Below are positions 4,230 to 15,016 of a DNA stretch of 64,000 nt, piece after piece. The stretch's first letter is position 1, and every line of letters begins with the position of its first letter. Origin of the DNA: Polycladomyces abyssicola (GTDB lineage Bacteria; Bacillota; Bacilli; Thermoactinomycetales; JIR-001); the NCBI RefSeq assembly GCF_018326425.1, contig NZ_AP024601.1, positions 1,972,001 through 2,036,000 on the forward strand, read 5' to 3'. Below the pieces are notes generated by a model. That model ran no database searches. It worked only from the letters and a program-made list of their open reading frames with translations, and had not been told where the DNA came from. Both the position numbers and the translations under genes were made by a program.

Positions 4230-4303
4230 TACCATACTGGTATTGTTGGTGATTGATTCTTCCAAACAAAGGAGTTCACGAATCCATTGTAATTACGTAT
4301 AAT
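4230..4303 (+). promoter_or_regulatory. Candidate promoter and operator for the oxidase-ZIP pair
   Basis: TTCACG at 4275-4280 and TATAAT at 4298-4303 are separated by 17 bp, a fair sigma-A promoter reading into the multicopper oxidase. Upstream at 4230-4242 is a dyad TACCA-TAC-TGGTA that could bind a repressor or activator. The rest of the 303-bp interval 4104-4406 between the divergent genes shows no coding potential. No known metal-regulator box was recognised. Confidence 0.5.
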
Positions 4304-4406
4304 TTAGATGCGGGAAAATGAGTTGTATTGATCAAACTTTATTTCCTATAACCAAATAAAACAATCCAAAAATTTTTTCGATTAAAAGTTGGAGGAGGGA
4401 AACAAA

Positions 4407-5438
4407 ATGGACACGGGGAAACAATCTCACCGGCGGAATCAAGCCTATTCCCGGCGTGCCTTTCTGAAAGTGGGATTAGGAGGGATGTTAGGAGCGGCGG
4501 GGGCGATGCTCTTGCCCAAAATGTTTCAACAGCAGGACAAGTCGACGTATGCCCAAAACCGTCATGCAACGCATGAGTCCCATTCGATGACGGGGAAGCC
4601 ATCCAAACAAGCATTGGATCAAGCTCACAAAATCCTGACTTCCTTCGACTACGGAAAAGTGAGCAAGCTGCCCGATGGACGCACGTTGCGGGAATATAAC
4701 ATTGTTGCCACGGATAAAGAGATCGAAGTGGCACCAGGTGTCGTTTACCCCGCTTGGACGTTCAACGGGCAAGTACCCGGACCGACAATCCGGGCCACCG
4801 AGGGAGATCTCTTGCGGATCCGCTTCACCAATGCCGGTTCTCATCCGCACACCATTCACTTTCATGGAATTCATCCCGCCAACATGGATGGGGTATTCGA
4901 GGTAGTTCAACCCGGTCAGAGCTTTACTTATGAATTGACGGCTGCACCCTTCGGCTGTCACCTGTACCACTGCCACGTGATGCCGTTGAAAAAGCACATG
5001 GAAAAGGGGTTGTACGGGGCGTTTATCATTGATCCGAGACAACCGAGACCGAAGGCGAAGGAAATGGTGATGGTGATGAATGCCTTTGACACCGACTTTG
5101 ACGAGGAGAATGAATTTTACACAGTCAACGGCTACGTCAACGCGTATTTGGATCGCCCCATCCCACTGAAGGCAAATGAGCTGGTAAGAGTCTATTTGGT
5201 CAACGTCACCGAGTTTGATCTGATCAACTCTTTCCATTTGCACGGGAACATGTTCAAACTATACCGAACCGGTACATCCCTGGACCAATACGAAGTGACG
5301 GACACCGTGATGTTGTGCCAAGGAGAGCGGTCTATTCTGGAATTTTCGTTTCAGTTTCCCGGTCGCTACATGTTCCACGCCCACCAGAGTGAATTTGCCG
5401 AGTTGGGCTGGATGGGTGTATTCGAAGTCATGGAGTAA
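4407..5438 (+). CDS. Tat-exported two-domain multicopper oxidase
   Basis: A 343-residue secreted copper oxidase. The N-terminus has a twin-arginine signal (SRRAFLK, residues 15-21) followed by a hydrophobic helix, so it is exported folded. Two cupredoxin domains follow. Four His-x-His pairs expected of a trinuclear copper centre are visible: H151/H153 (HFHG), H188/H190 (HCH), H277/H279 (HLHG) and H324/H326 (HAH). The only type-1 copper Cys is C189, in domain 1, with H148 and H197 as likely partners. Domain 2 has no equivalent Cys. This places the type-1 site in domain 1, as in copper nitrite reductases and unlike small laccases. Start at ATG 4407 with GGAGGAGGG upstream. The ZIP transporter follows after 14 bp, so a metal oxidase role is likely. 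Substrate unknown; nitrite reductase is less likely because of the full His set. Confidence 0.88.
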   Translation: MDTGKQSHRRNQAYSRRAFLKVGLGGMLGAAGAMLLPKMFQQQDKSTYAQNRHATHESHSMTGKPSKQALDQAHKILTSFDYGKVSKLPDGRTLREYNIVATDKEIEVAPGVVYPAWTFNGQVPGPTIRATEGDLLRIRFTNAGSHPHTIHFHGIHPANMDGVFEVVQPGQSFTYELTAAPFGCHLYHCHVMPLKKHMEKGLYGAFIIDPRQPRPKAKEMVMVMNAFDTDFDEENEFYTVNGYVNAYLDRPIPLKANELVRVYLVNVTEFDLINSFHLHGNMFKLYRTGTSLDQYEVTDTVMLCQGERSILEFSFQFPGRYMFHAHQSEFAELGWMGVFEVME

Positions 5439-5452
5439 GAGAGGTGGATCTG

Positions 5453-6634
5453 ATGGATTCCAAGAAAAAATGGATGTTGGGATTGCTGCCGCTGCTTTTG
5501 TTGGCAGTGGTGGTCGTTGGACTTTTCATGGGGATCGACAAGATCATCCAGCGACCGGATATCCCTTTGGAGGAGATCACGTTTGATCGGGTTTGGTTGG
5601 AAAAAGACCACATCAAGGCACAAGTGACCAACACCGGGACGGACCCTGTTAAAATCGCCCAAGTGACGGTCAACGGGGCAATCTGGAATGCGGATATCCA
5701 GCCGGACCCCGAATTGTCCCGTCTGGAAGAAGCGCAAATCAACATTCCTTATCATTGGGTGGAAGGAGAACCGTACGAAATCACATTGGTGACAGAGACG
5801 GGAGCGAAGTTTTCCGGGGAGGTGGCAGCGGCCACCGAAGCACCGAAACCGAATGCGTCCAGTTTCGGTCTGTTCGCCCTGATCGGGGTGTTGGTCGGGG
5901 TCATCCCCGTCCTCCTCGGTTTGATTTGGAAACCCTTCGTCGCCCGTCTTCAAGGCAAGGGTTATACCTTTATCCTGGCCGTAACGGCTGGATTGCTGCT
6001 CTTTCTGGGGGTTGATTCCTTGGAGGCGGCGTTGGAGCTGGCCTTCGAGTTGCCGGAGGCTTACCAGGGAATCGGATTACTCTTGTTGGCAGGTTTGGGT
6101 AGTTTCTTGATTCTGAACGGAATCAATGAATATGCGCAAACCCGAGAACAGCTGGGTAGAAAATGGTCTCCCCGCCTGACGGTGGCTTATCTGATTGCTT
6201 TCGGGATCGGTCTGCACAACCTGGGGGAAGGATTGGCCATCGGGGCAGCCTTTACGCTGGGGGAAGTGGCGATGGGAGCGTTTCTCATCATGGGCTTTAC
6301 CCTGCACAACATCACCGAAGGTTTGGCGATCGTCGCCCCCATTGCACGAGAACAAATAAGCAGCGTTCGATTGCTCCGGCATTTGTTCCTGCTCGGGTTG
6401 CTGGGAGGTTCTCCGGCAGTGTTGGGAACCTGGATCGGCGGCTTCCTGTACTCCCAAATATGGTCTCTGGTGTTTTTGGGCATTGGTGCCGGAGCCATCT
6501 TTCAAGTGGTAGTGGAAGTAATGAAACTGGCTCGCTCGGAACGGGAAGAGACTCTTTTCTCCCTGCACGGTGCCGCCGGATTGTTGACCGGTATTCTGGT
6601 GATGCTGGTGACAGCCGTTTTCGTCTCCGCGTGA
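5453..6634 (+). CDS. ZIP-family metal transporter with N-terminal extracytoplasmic domain
   Basis: A 393-residue protein in two parts. Residues about 8-27 form a membrane helix, followed by roughly 100 residues of beta-rich soluble sequence (about 40-130) with the feel of an Ig-like or FixG-like domain. Residues about 138-393 form the ZIP permease with seven or eight hydrophobic helices and the two metal-binding signatures, HNLGEG (H255, E259) and HNITEG (H285, E289). ZIP proteins move divalent metals such as Zn, Fe or Mn into the cytoplasm. Start at ATG 5453 with GAGAGGTGG upstream; 14 bp after the oxidase stop. The pairing with an exported oxidase suggests coupled metal oxidation and transport, which is inference. 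No clear terminator was seen downstream before the convergent pyrE. Confidence 0.87.
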   Translation: MDSKKKWMLGLLPLLLLAVVVVGLFMGIDKIIQRPDIPLEEITFDRVWLEKDHIKAQVTNTGTDPVKIAQVTVNGAIWNADIQPDPELSRLEEAQINIPYHWVEGEPYEITLVTETGAKFSGEVAAATEAPKPNASSFGLFALIGVLVGVIPVLLGLIWKPFVARLQGKGYTFILAVTAGLLLFLGVDSLEAALELAFELPEAYQGIGLLLLAGLGSFLILNGINEYAQTREQLGRKWSPRLTVAYLIAFGIGLHNLGEGLAIGAAFTLGEVAMGAFLIMGFTLHNITEGLAIVAPIAREQISSVRLLRHLFLLGLLGGSPAVLGTWIGGFLYSQIWSLVFLGIGAGAIFQVVVEVMKLARSEREETLFSLHGAAGLLTGILVMLVTAVFVSA

Positions 6635-8307: not shown

Positions 8308-11300
8308 TCAACCCGCCAGCACACCCATTTTCTTCTGACCCGTCACCGGTTGACCGATCGGGTCGGCGGTCAAGTAGATCGACTCCAGTGTGGTCAGGAG
8401 CGCTTCTACCGTATCCAGCGATGTGAGGCAGGCGATACCGTGTTCCACCGCTTCCCGACGGATCCGAAACCCGTCACGTTGCGGGGTTTTGCCTCGCGTC
8501 CACGTGTTGACAACCAAATCGGCTTCGCCTCGACGGATGAGATCGACGATGTGTGGTGAACCTTCCTTGATCTTGTTCACCCGTGTGACGGGTAAACCTT
8601 CCCGCTCCAGCATGTCTGCCGTTCCGTGCGTCGCCACCACTCGGTATCCCAGTTCGGAGAAACGGCGGATCAATGGGAGTGCCTCCTCCTTGTCCTTATC
8701 GCTGATGGTGACGACAACGGTACCGAATTGTGGCAGCGAAATGCCGGCGGCCAGCAATCCCTTGTAGATGGCGCGGGCCGCGTCGCGATCCCGTCCCATC
8801 ACTTCACCGGTCGATTTCATCTCGGGCCCCAGCGTCACATCGACGCGACGCAGTTTGGCGAAGGAGAAGACCGGCACTTTGACGGCCACCTCTCCGGTCT
8901 CCGGCCACAATCCGCTCGGGTATCCCTGATCAGTCAGCGATTCACCCAACATGACACGCGTGGCCACCTGCGCCATGGGAATTCCCGTCACTTTGCTCAG
9001 GAACGGTACCGTCCGTGAAGCACGCGGGTTGACTTCCAAGACATAAATATCGTCTTTGTGCAGAACAAACTGGATGTTGACCAGTCCGCGAATCTGAAGA
9101 GCACGGGCGATCTGGGTCGTCATCTTGATCAGACGCTGTTTTTGCGATGCGGTGATCGATTGTGCCGGATAAATGGCGATCGAGTCGCCGGAATGAACGC
9201 CCGCGCGCTCAATGTGCTCCATAATACCGGGGATCAGGACCGTTTCACCGTCGGCAATGGCGTCCACTTCCAGCTCTTTCCCTCTGAGGTAGCGATCCAT
9301 CAGAACCGGGTGTTCCGGGTTGACTTTGACCGCTTCCGACATGTAGGAAGTGAGTTCCTTTTCACTGTACACGATCTCCATCGCCCGACCACCCAGCACA
9401 TATGAGGGCCTTACTAACATGGGGAAGCCGATTTCTTTCGCTTTTTCCATCGCCTCCTCCGTGGAGGTGACTGCAAAGCCTGGCGGTTGTGGCACACCGA
9501 TCGACGCAAGCAATTGCTCGCACTTTTCCCTATCTTCGGCTCGGTCGATCTCCGACAACGGCGTACCCAGGATCGGAATCCCCGCTTTTTCCAGATGACG
9601 CGCCAGGTTGAGTGCCGTTTGTCCGCCGAATTGCACAATGACGCCCATCGGTTGCTCTTTCTCGATGACATGTAACACGTCTTCGATGTGCAACGGTTCA
9701 AAGTACAGGCGGTCGGAGATGTTGAAGTCGGTGGAGACTGTTTCCGGGTTGTTGTTCAAAATAACCGCCTCAATCCCCGCTTCGCGCAATGCTTTGATCG
9801 CGTGCACCGTAGCGTAATCAAACTCAACGCCTTGCCCGATGCGGATCGGTCCCGAACCGAGTACCAAAACCGACCGTTTGCCGTTCAGTACCACCTCGTC
9901 TTCCTGCTCGTAGGTAGAGTAGTAGTACGGCGTCTCGGCCGTGAATTCGGCTGCACAGGTATCCACCATCTTGTACACCGGCAAAATGCCCCATTCTTTG
10001 CGCAGTTGGCGTACTTCCTCGGCTTGCATCCCGCACCAGCGGGCCAATGTCCGATCGGTCCACCCCATTCGCTTGGCTTGTCGCAACGTGGCCTCATCCA
10101 GCGAGCCACGCTCACGCACCTCCCGTTCGAAACGGACCAGGTTTTCGATCTTGTGCAGGAAGAAGCGATCGATGTGCGTCAGTTCCGCCGCTTGCTCTAA
10201 ACCATACCCGCGGCGTAACCATTCGGCCAGGAGGAACAATCGCTCATCATCCGGTTGGACCAATCGCTCCTCCAACTGTTCGCGGGTCAACTCAGACGCA
10301 CTAGGCAACTCCAGATCTTCCATGCCGATTTCAAGCGAACGGACCGCTTTGAGCAGAGACTCCTCCACCGAACGGCCGATGGCCATCACTTCACCCGTCG
10401 CTTTCATCTGCGTGCCCAGTTTTCGGTTGGCAGAGGTGAATTTGTCAAACGGCCAACGTGGGATTTTGCACACCACATAGTCCAACGCCGGTTCGAAACA
10501 GGCGTATGTTCGCCCGGTGACAGGGTTTTTCAACTCGTCCAACGTGTAGCCGATTGCGATCTTGGCCGCAATCTGTGCGATCGGATATCCGGTCGCTTTG
10601 GAAGCGAGTGCGCTGGAGCGGCTCACACGCGGGTTCACTTCGATCACGTAATATTGGAAGCTGTGCGGATCGAGGGCAAACTGCACGTTGCACCCGCCAC
10701 GAATATCCAGTGCCCGAATGATTTTGAGCGCGGACGACCGCAACATTTGCACCTCACGGTCGGCCAGCGTAAGTGTGGGTGCAAACACGATGCTGTCGCC
10801 GGTGTGGACGCCGACGGGATCGAAGTTTTCCATGTTGCAGACGACAATGCTGTGGTCGGACGCGTCACGCATCACTTCATACTCGATCTCCTTGTAGCCG
10901 GCGATACTCTTTTCAATCAGGCACTGTTGAATGGGGCTGTAGCGCAATCCGTTTTCGACAATTTCCCGCAGTTCTGATTCCGTATGGGCGATTCCGCCTC
11001 CCGTACCGCCCAACGTATACGCCGCCCGCACAATTAACGGATAGCCGGTCTCATCGGCGAAACGGACTGCTTCTTCCACCGAATGAACGATTTCACTTTC
11101 CGGCACCGGTTCGCCGATCTCCTTCATCAATGCCCGGAATTGCTCCCGATCTTCCGCACACGTGATCGCGTGCAGTTCCGTTCCCAACAGGCGAACACCT
11201 TCTTTTTCCAAAACGCCCCGCTTGGCCAGTTCGACCGCCATGTTCAATCCCGTCTGTCCGCCCAAAGTCGGCAACAGTCCGTCCGGACGCTCTTTGCGAA

Positions 11301-11532
11301 TCACTTGGATCAGGAATTCGGGTGTGATCGGCTCGATGTACACCTTGTCCGCCATTTCCGTGTCGGTCATGATCGTCGCCGGATTGGAGTTAACCAACAC
11401 CACTTCCAGGCCTTCCTCTTTCAGCGCACGGCACGCTTGCGTTCCTGCGTAGTCGAACTCCGCCGCCTGTCCGATGACGATTGGACCGGAACCGATGACG
11501 AGGATTTTTTTCAGGCTGGGATCTTTAGGCAT
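8308..11532 (-). CDS. carB: Carbamoyl phosphate synthase large subunit
   Basis: Makes carbamoyl phosphate from bicarbonate, two ATP and the ammonia delivered by CarA. 1074 residues, the usual length. Two homologous halves are visible, each with an ATP-grasp fold (GSGPIVIGQ near residue 15 and GSGPIRIGQ near 560), followed by a C-terminal methylglyoxal-synthase-like regulatory domain (from about residue 940, [12 protein letters not shown]). The start overlaps the end of carA by 8 nt, and AAGGAGGT lies 8 nt upstream of the ATG. It is the pyr-type paralogue (PyrAB) given its operon. Confidence 0.97.
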
Positions 11533-12625
11533 GCTGCTTTACCTCCTTGCTCGCGTGTTGGCGGTGTGTCTCCATCAAGTCGATGAACTGGTCAAACAGG
11601 TAGTTGGGATCGACCGGTCCGGGTGCCGCTTCCGGATGGTACTGCACCGAGAATGCCGGGAATATCGTGTGGCGCAACCCTTCCACCGTTCCGTCGTTCA
11701 GCGCGATGTGCGTCACTTCCAGACCGGTGCCCGCCAGTGATTCGGCTCGTACGGTGTATCCGTGATTTTGCGAGGTAATGACCGTTTTTCCGGTGGCCAG
11801 TTCCTTCACCGGATGGTTGCAACCCCGGTGGCCGAACTTCATTTTGACCGTATCCGCACCACATGCTAAGGCCAACAGTTGATGTCCCAGGCAAATGCCG
11901 AAGATCGGGTAGCGACCCAAGAGACGACGAACGGTCTCCACCGCCTCCGGCACATCTTTGGGGTCACCGGGACCATTGGAGAGCAAAATGCCGTCCGGGT
12001 GGAAACGGTCGATTTCCTCGGCCGTTGTGTTCCACGGGACCACGATCACGTCGCAATTACGCCGCACCAGTTCCCGCTGGATACCGTATTTCGCGCCGAA
12101 ATCCATCAGTACGACCCGTTTACCGTAACCGGGAGCCGTATAGATACTTTTGGTACTCACCTGGGCCACCTGATCACGACGGAGTAGCACATTCAGCCGT
12201 TCCTTCAACACTTCGATCGGCTCATCCTCGGTAGTGATCAATCCTTTCATCGTACCGTGCACGCGAATCTTACGGGTGAGCATTCGGGTATCGACGCCGG
12301 CAATCCCGATGATGCCCCACTCTTTCAGCCAATCGTCGATCCGTGTTTCACACCGCCAGTTGCTGGGGTATTCCGCATGTTCCCTCACGATGAACCCTCG
12401 GACAAACGGGCGCAGGGTTTCCATGTCATCCCGGTTGATCCCATAATTGCCGATCAACGGGAACGTCATCGTCACAATCTGTCCGCAGTACGAGGGATCG
12501 GTCAACACTTCCTGGTATCCGCTCATTCCGGTGGTAAACACCACTTCGCCCACCGTCTCGCCCGTGGCGCCGAAAGAGACCCCTTCCATCCACGTCCCAT
12601 CTTCCAGCAACAATCGTGCCTTCAT
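11525..12625 (-). CDS. carA: Carbamoyl phosphate synthase small subunit
   Basis: The glutaminase subunit that frees ammonia from glutamine for CarB. 366 residues. The N-terminal CPSase domain contains [17 protein letters not shown]. The C-terminal class I amidotransferase domain has the nucleophile in [13 protein letters not shown] and the partner His-Glu in QYHPEA. Start at ATG 12625 with GTGGAGGGAT upstream. It follows pyrC by 17 nt and overlaps carB. Confidence 0.97.
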
Positions 12626-12642
12626 CGGTATCCCTCCACTTC

Positions 12643-13953
12643 TCAGGTTGCTGACAAAACCGTAGGCGCTCCGACCGACTCGCGCCAAGCCACCTGTCCC
12701 TGCACCAAGGTCAGGACCGGCCATCCTTTGGCCCTCCACCCGGCAAACGGCGTGTTTTTCCCTTTGGATACGAAGGTGCCCGGATCGATCGTCCGTTCTT
12801 CTTCCAAGTCGATCACCGTGATGTCCGCCGTTTGTCCTTCAGCCAGCCGTCCCCAGGGCAAACCGAACAATTCTGCCGGTCGGCGCGTCAGTTTCTCCAC
12901 CAGCTGCGCCAGGCTTAGATGACCGGTTAACACCAGCCGGGTATACAACAGCGGAAATGCCGTTTCCAACCCGACGATCCCGAACGGTGCCTGCCGGATG
13001 CCCATTGCCTTTTCTTCCGCTGCATGCGGAGCGTGGTCAGTGGCGATGATGTCGATCGTGCCGTCTTTCAGCGCCTCCAGCAGTGCAGCCCGATCTTCGG
13101 CGGAGCGCAAGGGGGGATTCATTTTGTACATCGGGTCCGGCCCCGGAATGTCTTCGTCGCTCAGGAGCAGATGGTGCGGCGTCACTTCCGCCGTTACGCG
13201 CAACCCTTTTTGTTTGGCCATCCGGACGAGATCGACCGAGGCTTTGGCACTGATGTGGCACACGTGGTAATGGACCCCCGTCTCCTCGGCCAAAATGATG
13301 TCCCGGGCGACATGCACCGCTTCGGCCGATCCGGGAATGCCGGGCAGATCGTGTTTGGCGGCGAAGATCCCGTCATGGACGCATCCCCCTTTGGCCAGTG
13401 AATTGTCTTCGCAATGGGCGACGATGGGCAAGTTCAACTCGCGCGCCCAAGCCATCGCCTGTTTCATCATGCGGGCGCTCTGCACGCCCACACCGTCGTC
13501 GGACAAAGCGACAGCACCCGCTTCCTTCAAAGCGGCGAAGTCAGTCAACTCCTCGCCCAGCTCCCGTTTGGTAATCGCGGCGATGGGCAGAACGCGCACC
13601 CGTCCCTCCCGTTCTGCCGTCTCGCGGATACGAGCGATCACTTCAGGGGTATCCACCACCGGCCGTGTATTAGGCATACAGGCCACCGTCGTAAAGCCGC
13701 CTCTGGCCGCTGCGGCGGTTCCCGTCGCGATCGTTTCCTTATGTTCGAACCCCGGTTCGCGCAAATGGACATGCATATCGATCAATCCGGGCACGATCAG
13801 CCGTCCGGCCACATCGATCCTTTCTGCTCCTGCCTTCGGCAGATCCCGACCGATGGCCGCGATCACGCCGTTCTCCATCCGCACATCCGCCGGAACGATT
13901 TCCCCCGTTTTTTCATCCAATATCCGTCCGTTTTTCAGCAGGATGTGGTTCAT
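12643..13953 (-). CDS. pyrC: Dihydroorotase
   Basis: Closes carbamoyl aspartate into dihydroorotate, step three of the pathway. 436 residues, the long class I type of Gram-positive bacteria. Metal ligands are visible in [10 protein letters not shown] (HxH) and later in [15 protein letters not shown] and ATDHAPH. The ATG overlaps the pyrB stop as ATGA, with GGGGGAAAACGAGG upstream, so translation is probably coupled. Confidence 0.97.
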
Positions 13954-14879
13954 CCTCGTTTTCCCCCTTCCAATACGCGTTCCAACACCGCCATACGCAC
14001 CCATACACCATTCTTCATCTGCTCAAACACCTTGGAGCGCGGATGCTCCACCAGCTCGTCCGCCAACTCCACATCCCGGTTGACCGGTCCGGGGTGCAGG
14101 ATGACCGCATGATCTTGCATGCGTGCAAACCGCTCCAACGTCAACCCGTAATGTTGATGGTATGCTTCCGCAGTGGTAAACAACTGTTCGCGGTGCCGCT
14201 CCAGTTGCACCCGGAGCATCATCACGGCATCGGCCTGCGCAATCGCTTCGTCGATCGGCAGATATGGTGCGTGTTCTTCCAGATCGGGCGCCCGCATCGT
14301 TTCCGGGCCACTGAACACCACCTCGGCTCCCATCGTGGTCAACGACCATAGATTGGAACGTGCTACACGGCTGTGCCGCAGGTCGCCGATGATGGCCACG
14401 CGCAGTCCGTTCAAGTCTCCGAAGTGTTTGTGCAGGGTGTAGAGATCCAGCAACGCCTGTGTCGGATGAGCGTTGTGTCCGTCTCCGGCATTGACCAATC
14501 GGACACCGTTGTTTTGTTTGGCCATTTCTTCTGCAATTCCGGACTGGCTGTGACGAATCACCGCCACTTCCACTCCGATAGCGGCCAGGGTTTTCAACGT
14601 GTCAGCCAGCGTTTCTCCCTTGACGGTGCTGGAGGTGTCCTCCGATACATTCAACACTTCCAAGCCCAACCGTTTCTCCGCCACCTCAAAAGAAAACCGC
14701 GTCCGTGTGCTCGGTTCAAAAAACAGGTTGGCAACAAACCGCCCGAGATAACGCGGCGGTACCAGACCGTTTTGGTCTTCGTAAAAACGGGCCCGCTCCA
14801 AAATGGCCATCAACTCGCTTCGGGACAATCCGTTGGTGTCGATCAGATTGGTTTCGTCGGATCGAACGGCGATGTTCAT
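13950..14879 (-). CDS. pyrB: Aspartate carbamoyltransferase catalytic subunit
   Basis: Condenses carbamoyl phosphate with aspartate. 309 residues. The carbamoyl-phosphate loop [13 protein letters not shown] and the HPTQALLD motif are both present. No regulatory pyrI was seen, as expected in Bacillota. Start at ATG 14879 with GGGAGGGAGCAGG upstream. The gap upstream (14880-15029) holds a PyrR attenuator. Confidence 0.97.
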
Positions 14880-14902
14880 CCTGCTCCCTCCCGGTGTTAT
14901 GT

Positions 14903-15016
14903 AAAAAAGCTCCTCCCAAACGGATGGGAGGAGCCCACCAAACCCGCAACCCGCCAAAAGGGTGCAGCTCGGCTATGCCGCTCCTTCCCAGCCTCACGGG
15001 ACTGGATTAAAGGAAC
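14903..15016 (-). promoter_or_regulatory. PyrR attenuator in front of pyrB
   Basis: On the minus strand the conserved PyrR binding segment TCCCGTGAGGCTGG lies at about 14988-15004. It is followed downstream by a terminator with stem GCTCCTCCCA/TGGGAGGAGC (14909-14934) and TTTTTT. With UMP present, PyrR holds the anti-antiterminator and the terminator forms. Confidence 0.9.

Follow-up and report, generated by a model that had tools for sequence, protein, structure and literature searches.

What does an exported copper oxidase do beside a metal transporter, and which metal do the two genes serve? The question is raised by a pair of co-directional genes on the plus strand of the window, by which we mean the whole analysed stretch of 64,000 nucleotides from Polycladomyces abyssicola, whose genome is a single contig of 3.2 Mb. 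A gene for a two-domain multicopper oxidase (MCO) is followed after 14 bp by a gene for a ZIP transporter, with a short-chain dehydrogenase gene on one side of the pair and a pyrimidine operon on the other. The latter holds ordinary biosynthesis genes for carbamoyl-phosphate synthase subunits, dihydroorotase and aspartate carbamoyltransferase (8308-14957, minus strand). The initial annotation had read the pair as an oxidase-permease unit for metal uptake, comparable to Fet3-Ftr1 of yeast, and named no metal; the regulators and operators described below point to manganese. In the reading that we consider probable, the two genes form an MntR-repressed Mn(II)-uptake operon, with the ZIP as the importer of Mn(II) and the oxidase acting at its side.

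The oxidase gene carries the following features:

4407..5438, plus strand: gene for a type C MCO, predicted to be Tat-exported (ATG at 4407, stop at 5438; 343 amino acids)
4449..4469, plus strand: twin-arginine motif SRRAFLK, residues 15-21, of which S15, R16, R17 and K21 are invariant in A1
4848..4865, plus strand: H148 (type 1) with H151 and H153 (trinuclear centre), invariant in 93/93
4968..5012, plus strand: H188-C189-H190 ... H197 ... L202, comprising the type-1 Cys and His, the axial Leu and a trinuclear His pair
5235..5243, plus strand: H277/H279, domain-2 trinuclear ligands, invariant in 93/93
5376..5384, plus strand: H324/H326, domain-2 trinuclear ligands, invariant in 93/93

The protein matches the Pfam families Cu-oxidase_3 (8e-27) and Cu-oxidase_2 (7e-27). 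By alignment, its four HxH pairs (H151/H153, H188/H190, H277/H279 and H324/H326) supply the eight His of the trinuclear centre, and H148, C189 and H197 form the type-1 site together with Leu at axial position 202. Since HAH replaces HCH in domain 2, that domain has no type-1 site. On this ligand pattern the protein is a type C two-domain MCO with a type-1 Cys in domain 1 only, in agreement with the initial annotation of a Tat-type enzyme with four HxH pairs and one type-1 Cys. All eleven His/Cys copper ligands are 100% invariant among 93 relatives, and the Leu at position 202, which had been singled out beforehand, proves to be a family rule (86 Leu, 7 Met). Copper nitrite reductase was considered as an identity and rejected: the MCO has the eight-His trinuclear set, His151 occupies the place of the catalytic Asp of that enzyme, and the score on TIGR02376 is 112 bits against a cut-off of 296. 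The closest solved structures found by phmmer are PDB 7rab (385 bits) and PDB 3gdc (382 bits), and resemblance to these suggests that the enzyme may be a trimer with oxidase activity.

The second gene, whose start codon at 5453 follows the oxidase stop as originally described, encodes more than a transporter core:

5453..6634, plus strand: ZIP gene with an extra N-terminal domain (ATG at 5453, stop at 6634; 393 amino acids)
5459..5545, plus strand: N-terminal membrane anchor helix, residues 3-31, in the AlphaFold2 model
5573..5827, plus strand: Ig-like beta-sandwich, residues about 41-125, predicted to be exported (separate model, pLDDT 92.5)
5855..6628, plus strand: eight-helix ZIP core, from the model, with a fold match to BbZIP
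6215..6229, plus strand: TM4 metal motif H255-N256-x-x-E259, invariant wherever aligned
6305..6319, plus strand: TM5 metal motif H285-N286-x-x-E289, invariant wherever aligned

With its match to the Pfam family Zip (PF02535, 3e-12), its predicted eight-helix fold and HNxxE motifs in TM4 and TM5, the protein belongs to PF02535. The full-length AlphaFold2 model (mean pLDDT 89.7) comprises the anchor helix, the Ig-like sandwich and eight core helices, and its best fold match in the PDB is BbZIP (TM 0.66 by target length). No Pfam family was found for the Ig-like domain, the nearest folds to which are the soluble domains of archaellum FlaF/FlaG (TM 0.6-0.7). It is conserved in those paired ZIPs that were aligned and is a candidate docking domain for the oxidase.

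The transporter model bears directly on a strict analogue of Fet3-Ftr1, in which the oxidised product, either Mn(III) or Fe(III), would be channelled from the oxidase into the ZIP. Invariant pairing of the genes and a dedicated exported domain on the ZIP would suit such channelling. However, the transporter still has divalent-metal motifs and a fold like that of BbZIP, free Mn(III) is unstable, and we know of no ZIP that carries a trivalent metal. We regard this as the least probable of the readings weighed here. The first interpretation of the locus thus holds in one part and not in the other: the oxidase-permease pair is real, conserved and co-inherited, whereas the strict analogy is unsupported as stated, because the ZIP has ordinary divalent-metal motifs and there is no sign that the oxidised metal is the carried metal.

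How firmly do the two genes belong together? Among 61 relatives, a close MCO occurs in seven and a close ZIP adjoins it in all seven (7/7); neither gene was found alone as a close copy in any of the 61. The relatives carrying the pair are Thermoactinomycetes-type Bacillota (Polycladospora, Thermoactinomyces and Croceifilum), and two further species of the same genus have neither gene. From a scan of GTDB representatives for the MCO, the best 80 of 535 loci were kept. Once copies on plasmids and those of the nearest relatives had been added and duplicates removed, the set comprised 95 loci from 14 phylum-level groups; these represent the closest MCO relatives, at about 52% identity or more. A ZIP adjoins the MCO in 93 of the 95 and the remaining two stop at contig edges, which places the pairing far beyond chance. 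The distances of the two proteins are correlated (Mantel r 0.77; permutation maximum 0.07), and co-inheritance is supported. At least twelve bacterial phyla encode oxidase and ZIP as a set pair of genes, so that the conservation in relatives on which the initial annotation had made its proposal depend is borne out. The unit is nevertheless patchy, the MCO being present at E<=1e-90 in 2 of 398 genomes of a phylum sample. Its flanking genes vary from genus to genus, a pattern as for a moved cassette, and no natural MCO-ZIP fusion was seen among 77 pairs.

Unless the two proteins have a joint function, it is difficult to account for a pairing that is almost absolute and for phylogenies that match from phylum to phylum. 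Both observations argue against a shared regulon without physical or redox coupling, in which the oxidase would make Mn(III)/Mn(IV) or oxidise phenolics and the ZIP would import metal separately. Coupling of the two proteins is indeed our own deduction, and two-domain MCOs have been studied for lignin oxidation (PMC13151041); even so, we consider independent action very unlikely.

Other genes accompany subsets of the loci. A small TatA gene lies directly 3' of the ZIP in 20 of the 27 Bacillota loci (for example L160 8232-8459, L161 8098-8274, L162 8070-8288 and most Paenibacillus loci), which fits Tat export of the oxidase, as if the operon brought its own export part. A Rieske iron-sulphur protein is encoded 3' of the ZIP in the plasmid copies of Rubrobacter, Rhodococcus and Chroococcidiopsis (L163 8182-9249, L165 8269-8583 and L167 8156-8590), joined in Rubrobacter by DoxX, and is possibly a further electron carrier.

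The commonest shared neighbour is a regulator of the DtxR/MntR family, which lies no further than 2.5 kb away in 38 of the 95 loci and in 35 of the 68 outside Bacillota. Regulator-linked loci include those of Gemmatimonadota, Methylomirabilota, Chloroflexota, Poribacteria, Dadabacteria, Actinomycetota, Deinococcota and others; given one to three such genes per genome, linkage would be expected by chance in well under 1%. The host genome has three DtxR/MntR-family genes over the cut-off and encodes a canonical MntR. In 36 aligned neighbour regulators, the position of MntR Asp8 is occupied by Asp in 31 and Asn in three, and that of Glu99 by Glu in 27, Asp in eight and His in one; the Met/Cys of iron-type DtxR never appears at these positions in the 36. 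Read from their sequences, the metal ligands of the neighbour regulators are manganese-type. NRAMP genes, too, lie no more than 6 kb away in eight of the 95 loci, two of them on plasmids.

These regulators also bear on copper uptake, in which the oxidase would convert Cu(I) to Cu(II) for import by the ZIP, as proposed for ammonia-oxidising archaea. In N. viennensis, MCO1 and the ZIP are up modestly under Cu limitation (log2 0.81 and 1.33), and the axial Leu is reported to be shared by archaeal MCO1 (PMC7785015); the response to copper limitation counts, by the same token, against manganese uptake. Conversely, the bacterial pair has regulators and operators of the manganese type, the recurrent neighbours of the MCO-ZIP loci revealed no conspicuous link to a copper sensor, and a system that costs four Cu per oxidase would be an awkward means of acquiring copper. 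The manganese-type regulation argues against Cu import for the bacterial pair only, and for that pair we hold copper uptake to be decidedly unlikely.

Operators were sought by a de novo search for a palindromic 18-mer in the MCO leaders of 17 Bacillota loci, a set from which the window and its closest relatives were excluded. The resulting motif, TGTTTCCCTAGGGAAACA, has a log-likelihood of 152 (29-39 in shuffles) and a site in 17/17 sequences. The MntR recognition sequence published for B. subtilis mntH (PMC9861239) scores 22.0 bits on it, and mntH genes of these organisms are likewise preceded by the motif, at 15-21 bits (17.7 for mntH of the host genome), although three mntH leaders (L184-186) have no clear site, a point against the manganese-uptake reading. 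The best lag between sites across leaders is exactly 19 bp, and the next 38. This is the register of MntR dimers in the cryo-EM structure on mneP, where 18-bp sites lie 1 bp apart (PMC11275975). The leader of the window pair is arranged as follows:

4275..4303, plus strand: promoter TTCACG-17 bp-TATAAT (consensus scan, 10/12 consensus matches)
4302..4319, plus strand: MntR-like site A, ATTTAGATGCGGGAAAAT, a weak site that overlaps the -10 (scored with a PWM built from other loci)
4321..4338, plus strand: MntR-like site B, AGTTGTATTGATCAAACT, weak (scored with a PWM built from other loci)
4340..4357, plus strand: MntR-like site C, TATTTCCTATAACCAAAT, weak (scored with a PWM built from other loci)
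4387..4404, plus strand: MntR-like site D, AGTTGGAGGAGGGAAACA, 13.1 bits, overlapping the MCO Shine-Dalgarno

Taken singly, these sites are weak (1.7, 3.9, 3.5 and 13.1 bits, respectively), and this too weighs against the manganese-uptake reading: site D is the top of 63,983 window positions yet only about tenth in the 1.26 Mb of host genome used as background, although it is kept in place in L031, L033 and L035. The number of promoter-like matches that the consensus scan returned in the region was likewise not above that in shuffles. A looser pattern, WKTTK-N5-GKNMAAMW, gave 151 matches in the host genome and 151 in the control. As single sites are unspecific, a test of 19-bp arrays was used instead, sites A, B and C standing at exact 19-bp steps (4302, 4321 and 4340). 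Two of the three top 19-bp-spaced pairs in 1.26 Mb belong to this leader and one to that of mntH, B+C being the best. Moreover, the 12-mer TATAATTTAGAT, which spans the -10 and the start of the array, has two occurrences in 1.26 Mb, in the MCO and mntH leaders. The case for MntR at the window therefore rests on the array, which appears specific genome-wide where its single sites are not, and an MntR-type operator at the MCO promoter, common to mntH, is well supported at the level of sequence.

Two other candidates were set aside. The perfect palindrome TACCAtacTGGTA (4233-4245) lies 5' of the promoter and was not seen in those leaders of relatives that were inspected; the pattern AAAGTTG-N6-GGNAAACA misses the window site in its own genome, its spacing being one base off. 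In another locus (L138 6865-6882), a perfect MntR-like palindrome, TTTTGCCTGAAGGCAAAA, is followed by a T-rich stretch and also scores, within the leader, as a hairpin resembling an intrinsic terminator.

If an MntR-type system controls the pair, does it repress or activate? Weak sites in tandem are likewise typical of mneP and mneS, Mn-activated efflux genes that B. subtilis MntR switches on through arrays spaced 19 bp (PMC11275975). This resemblance, which counts against manganese uptake, leads us to keep the opposite regulatory sign as a rival: MntR would activate the pair at high Mn, and the pair would remove or neutralise Mn (or Fe), the exported Mn(II)/Fe(II) being turned into insoluble oxides outside the cell by the logic of ferroportin and ceruloplasmin. 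VIT1/CCC1-type genes near two of the 95 loci accord with such detoxification, as do plasmid copies that sit amid metal-resistance genes and count to that extent against uptake (L161, L162, L165 and L167, among ArsR, P-type ATPase, CDF and CadD genes of Cd/Zn type). However, the array lies over and 3' of the -10 and not upstream of the -35; mntH, which encodes an importer, shares both this layout and TATAATTTAGAT in the host genome; and ZIPs are generally importers. Eight Paenibacillus/Cohnella leaders similarly combine TTTACA-17-TATA(T/G)T with a box 9-15 bp after the -10, the array of the host mntH covers its -10 and the region downstream, and the MntR elements of B. subtilis mntH are located at +6 to +67 (PMC10448178). 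An array that overlaps the -10 and runs 3', as in these leaders, favours repression by Mn and hence uptake. Detoxification thus strikes us as unlikely, if less so than copper import.

Taken together, regulation of the pair by an MntR-type system is well supported by its sequence signatures, and manganese is named as the metal on the strength of the neighbour regulators and operators. What the sequence itself establishes is the gene pair and its linkage, the ligands, the arrangement of domains, the operators and the type of regulator. We infer from the locus a direction of regulation, Mn(II) as cargo, docking, an oxidase substrate and a coupling of the two proteins that would combine in the Mn(II)-uptake operon as follows. 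When Mn(II) is plentiful, Mn-MntR dimers would fill the array of 18-bp sites on promoter and leader, and the operon would be off, as at mntH; when it is scarce, both oxidase and ZIP would be made. The ZIP would bring in Mn(II) and, like other ZIPs, probably some Fe(II) or Zn(II) as well. The oxidase would leave the cell by Tat, is likely to be held at the ZIP by the exported Ig-like domain, and would draw electrons from a reduced metal by way of a type-1 site of high potential, suggested by the axial Leu, and hand them to O2. It may serve to convert Fe(II) (or Cu(I)) to the oxidised state at the mouth of the ZIP, so that a divalent carrier of low selectivity would deliver Mn(II). Removal of competing reduced metal, Fe(II) and perhaps Cu(I), appears the most plausible role for the oxidase, in view of the axial Leu, the regulon and a ZIP site of the divalent-metal kind.

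The adjacency itself has precedent. A pair of MCO1 and a ZIP permease is described in ammonia-oxidising archaea (PMC7785015, PMC5817080, PMC5767755, PMC7819960) and is traced to Kerou 2016 through papers that cite it. Both a Fet3/Ftr1-like MCO-ZIP arrangement and copper uptake have been proposed there (PMC7785015). Compared by published description, the archaeal pair resembles ours in the two-domain MCO adjoining a ZIP, the reported axial Leu and a proposed uptake role; it differs in that copper is the proposed metal, whereas the bacterial pair has manganese-type regulation. In the open-access literature on MntR/DtxR with MCO and ZIP, we found no account of this operon in bacteria, of its linkage to regulators or of MntR operators before it. 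What is new here is the metal, through control sites and regulators for manganese, since MCO-ZIP adjacency and the comparison with Fet3-Ftr1 are already published for archaea. More tentatively, and with an expectation well below even, we suggest that such pairs constitute a widespread, unrecognised class of bacterial Mn(II) importers, in which an exported MCO docks on a ZIP through the Ig-like domain and sets its metal selectivity, and that the archaeal MCO1-ZIP belongs to this system too, copper having been assigned to it in error. The point has some weight, as the pair is among the few metal systems described in these archaea and has been read as copper uptake, and manganese-type regulators and operators make its substrate directly testable in culturable Bacillota.

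The family also includes enzymes of solved structure. The chain of 3gdc is identical over the aligned 272 amino acids to an MCO of Arthrobacter sp. FB24 that is encoded on plasmid 1, with a ZIP gene after it and a divergent gene for a Mn-type regulator of the DtxR family alongside. Unlike the window pair, 3gdc and 7rab were solved as isolated oxidases, and the literature searched makes no mention of their operon or metal link; the manganese reading would give this family a physiological role. Fet3-Ftr1 of yeast shares with MCO-ZIP the combination of a surface oxidase and a permease, but Ftr1 is unrelated to ZIP and Fet3 is a three-domain, membrane-anchored ferroxidase. MntR-repressed mntH (NRAMP) of Bacillus matches the window pair in operator sequence, in the 19-bp register and in the position of sites relative to the promoter, and differs as a single transporter without an oxidase. 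If our reading is true, an oxidase-assisted route would be added to the known bacterial manganese importers.
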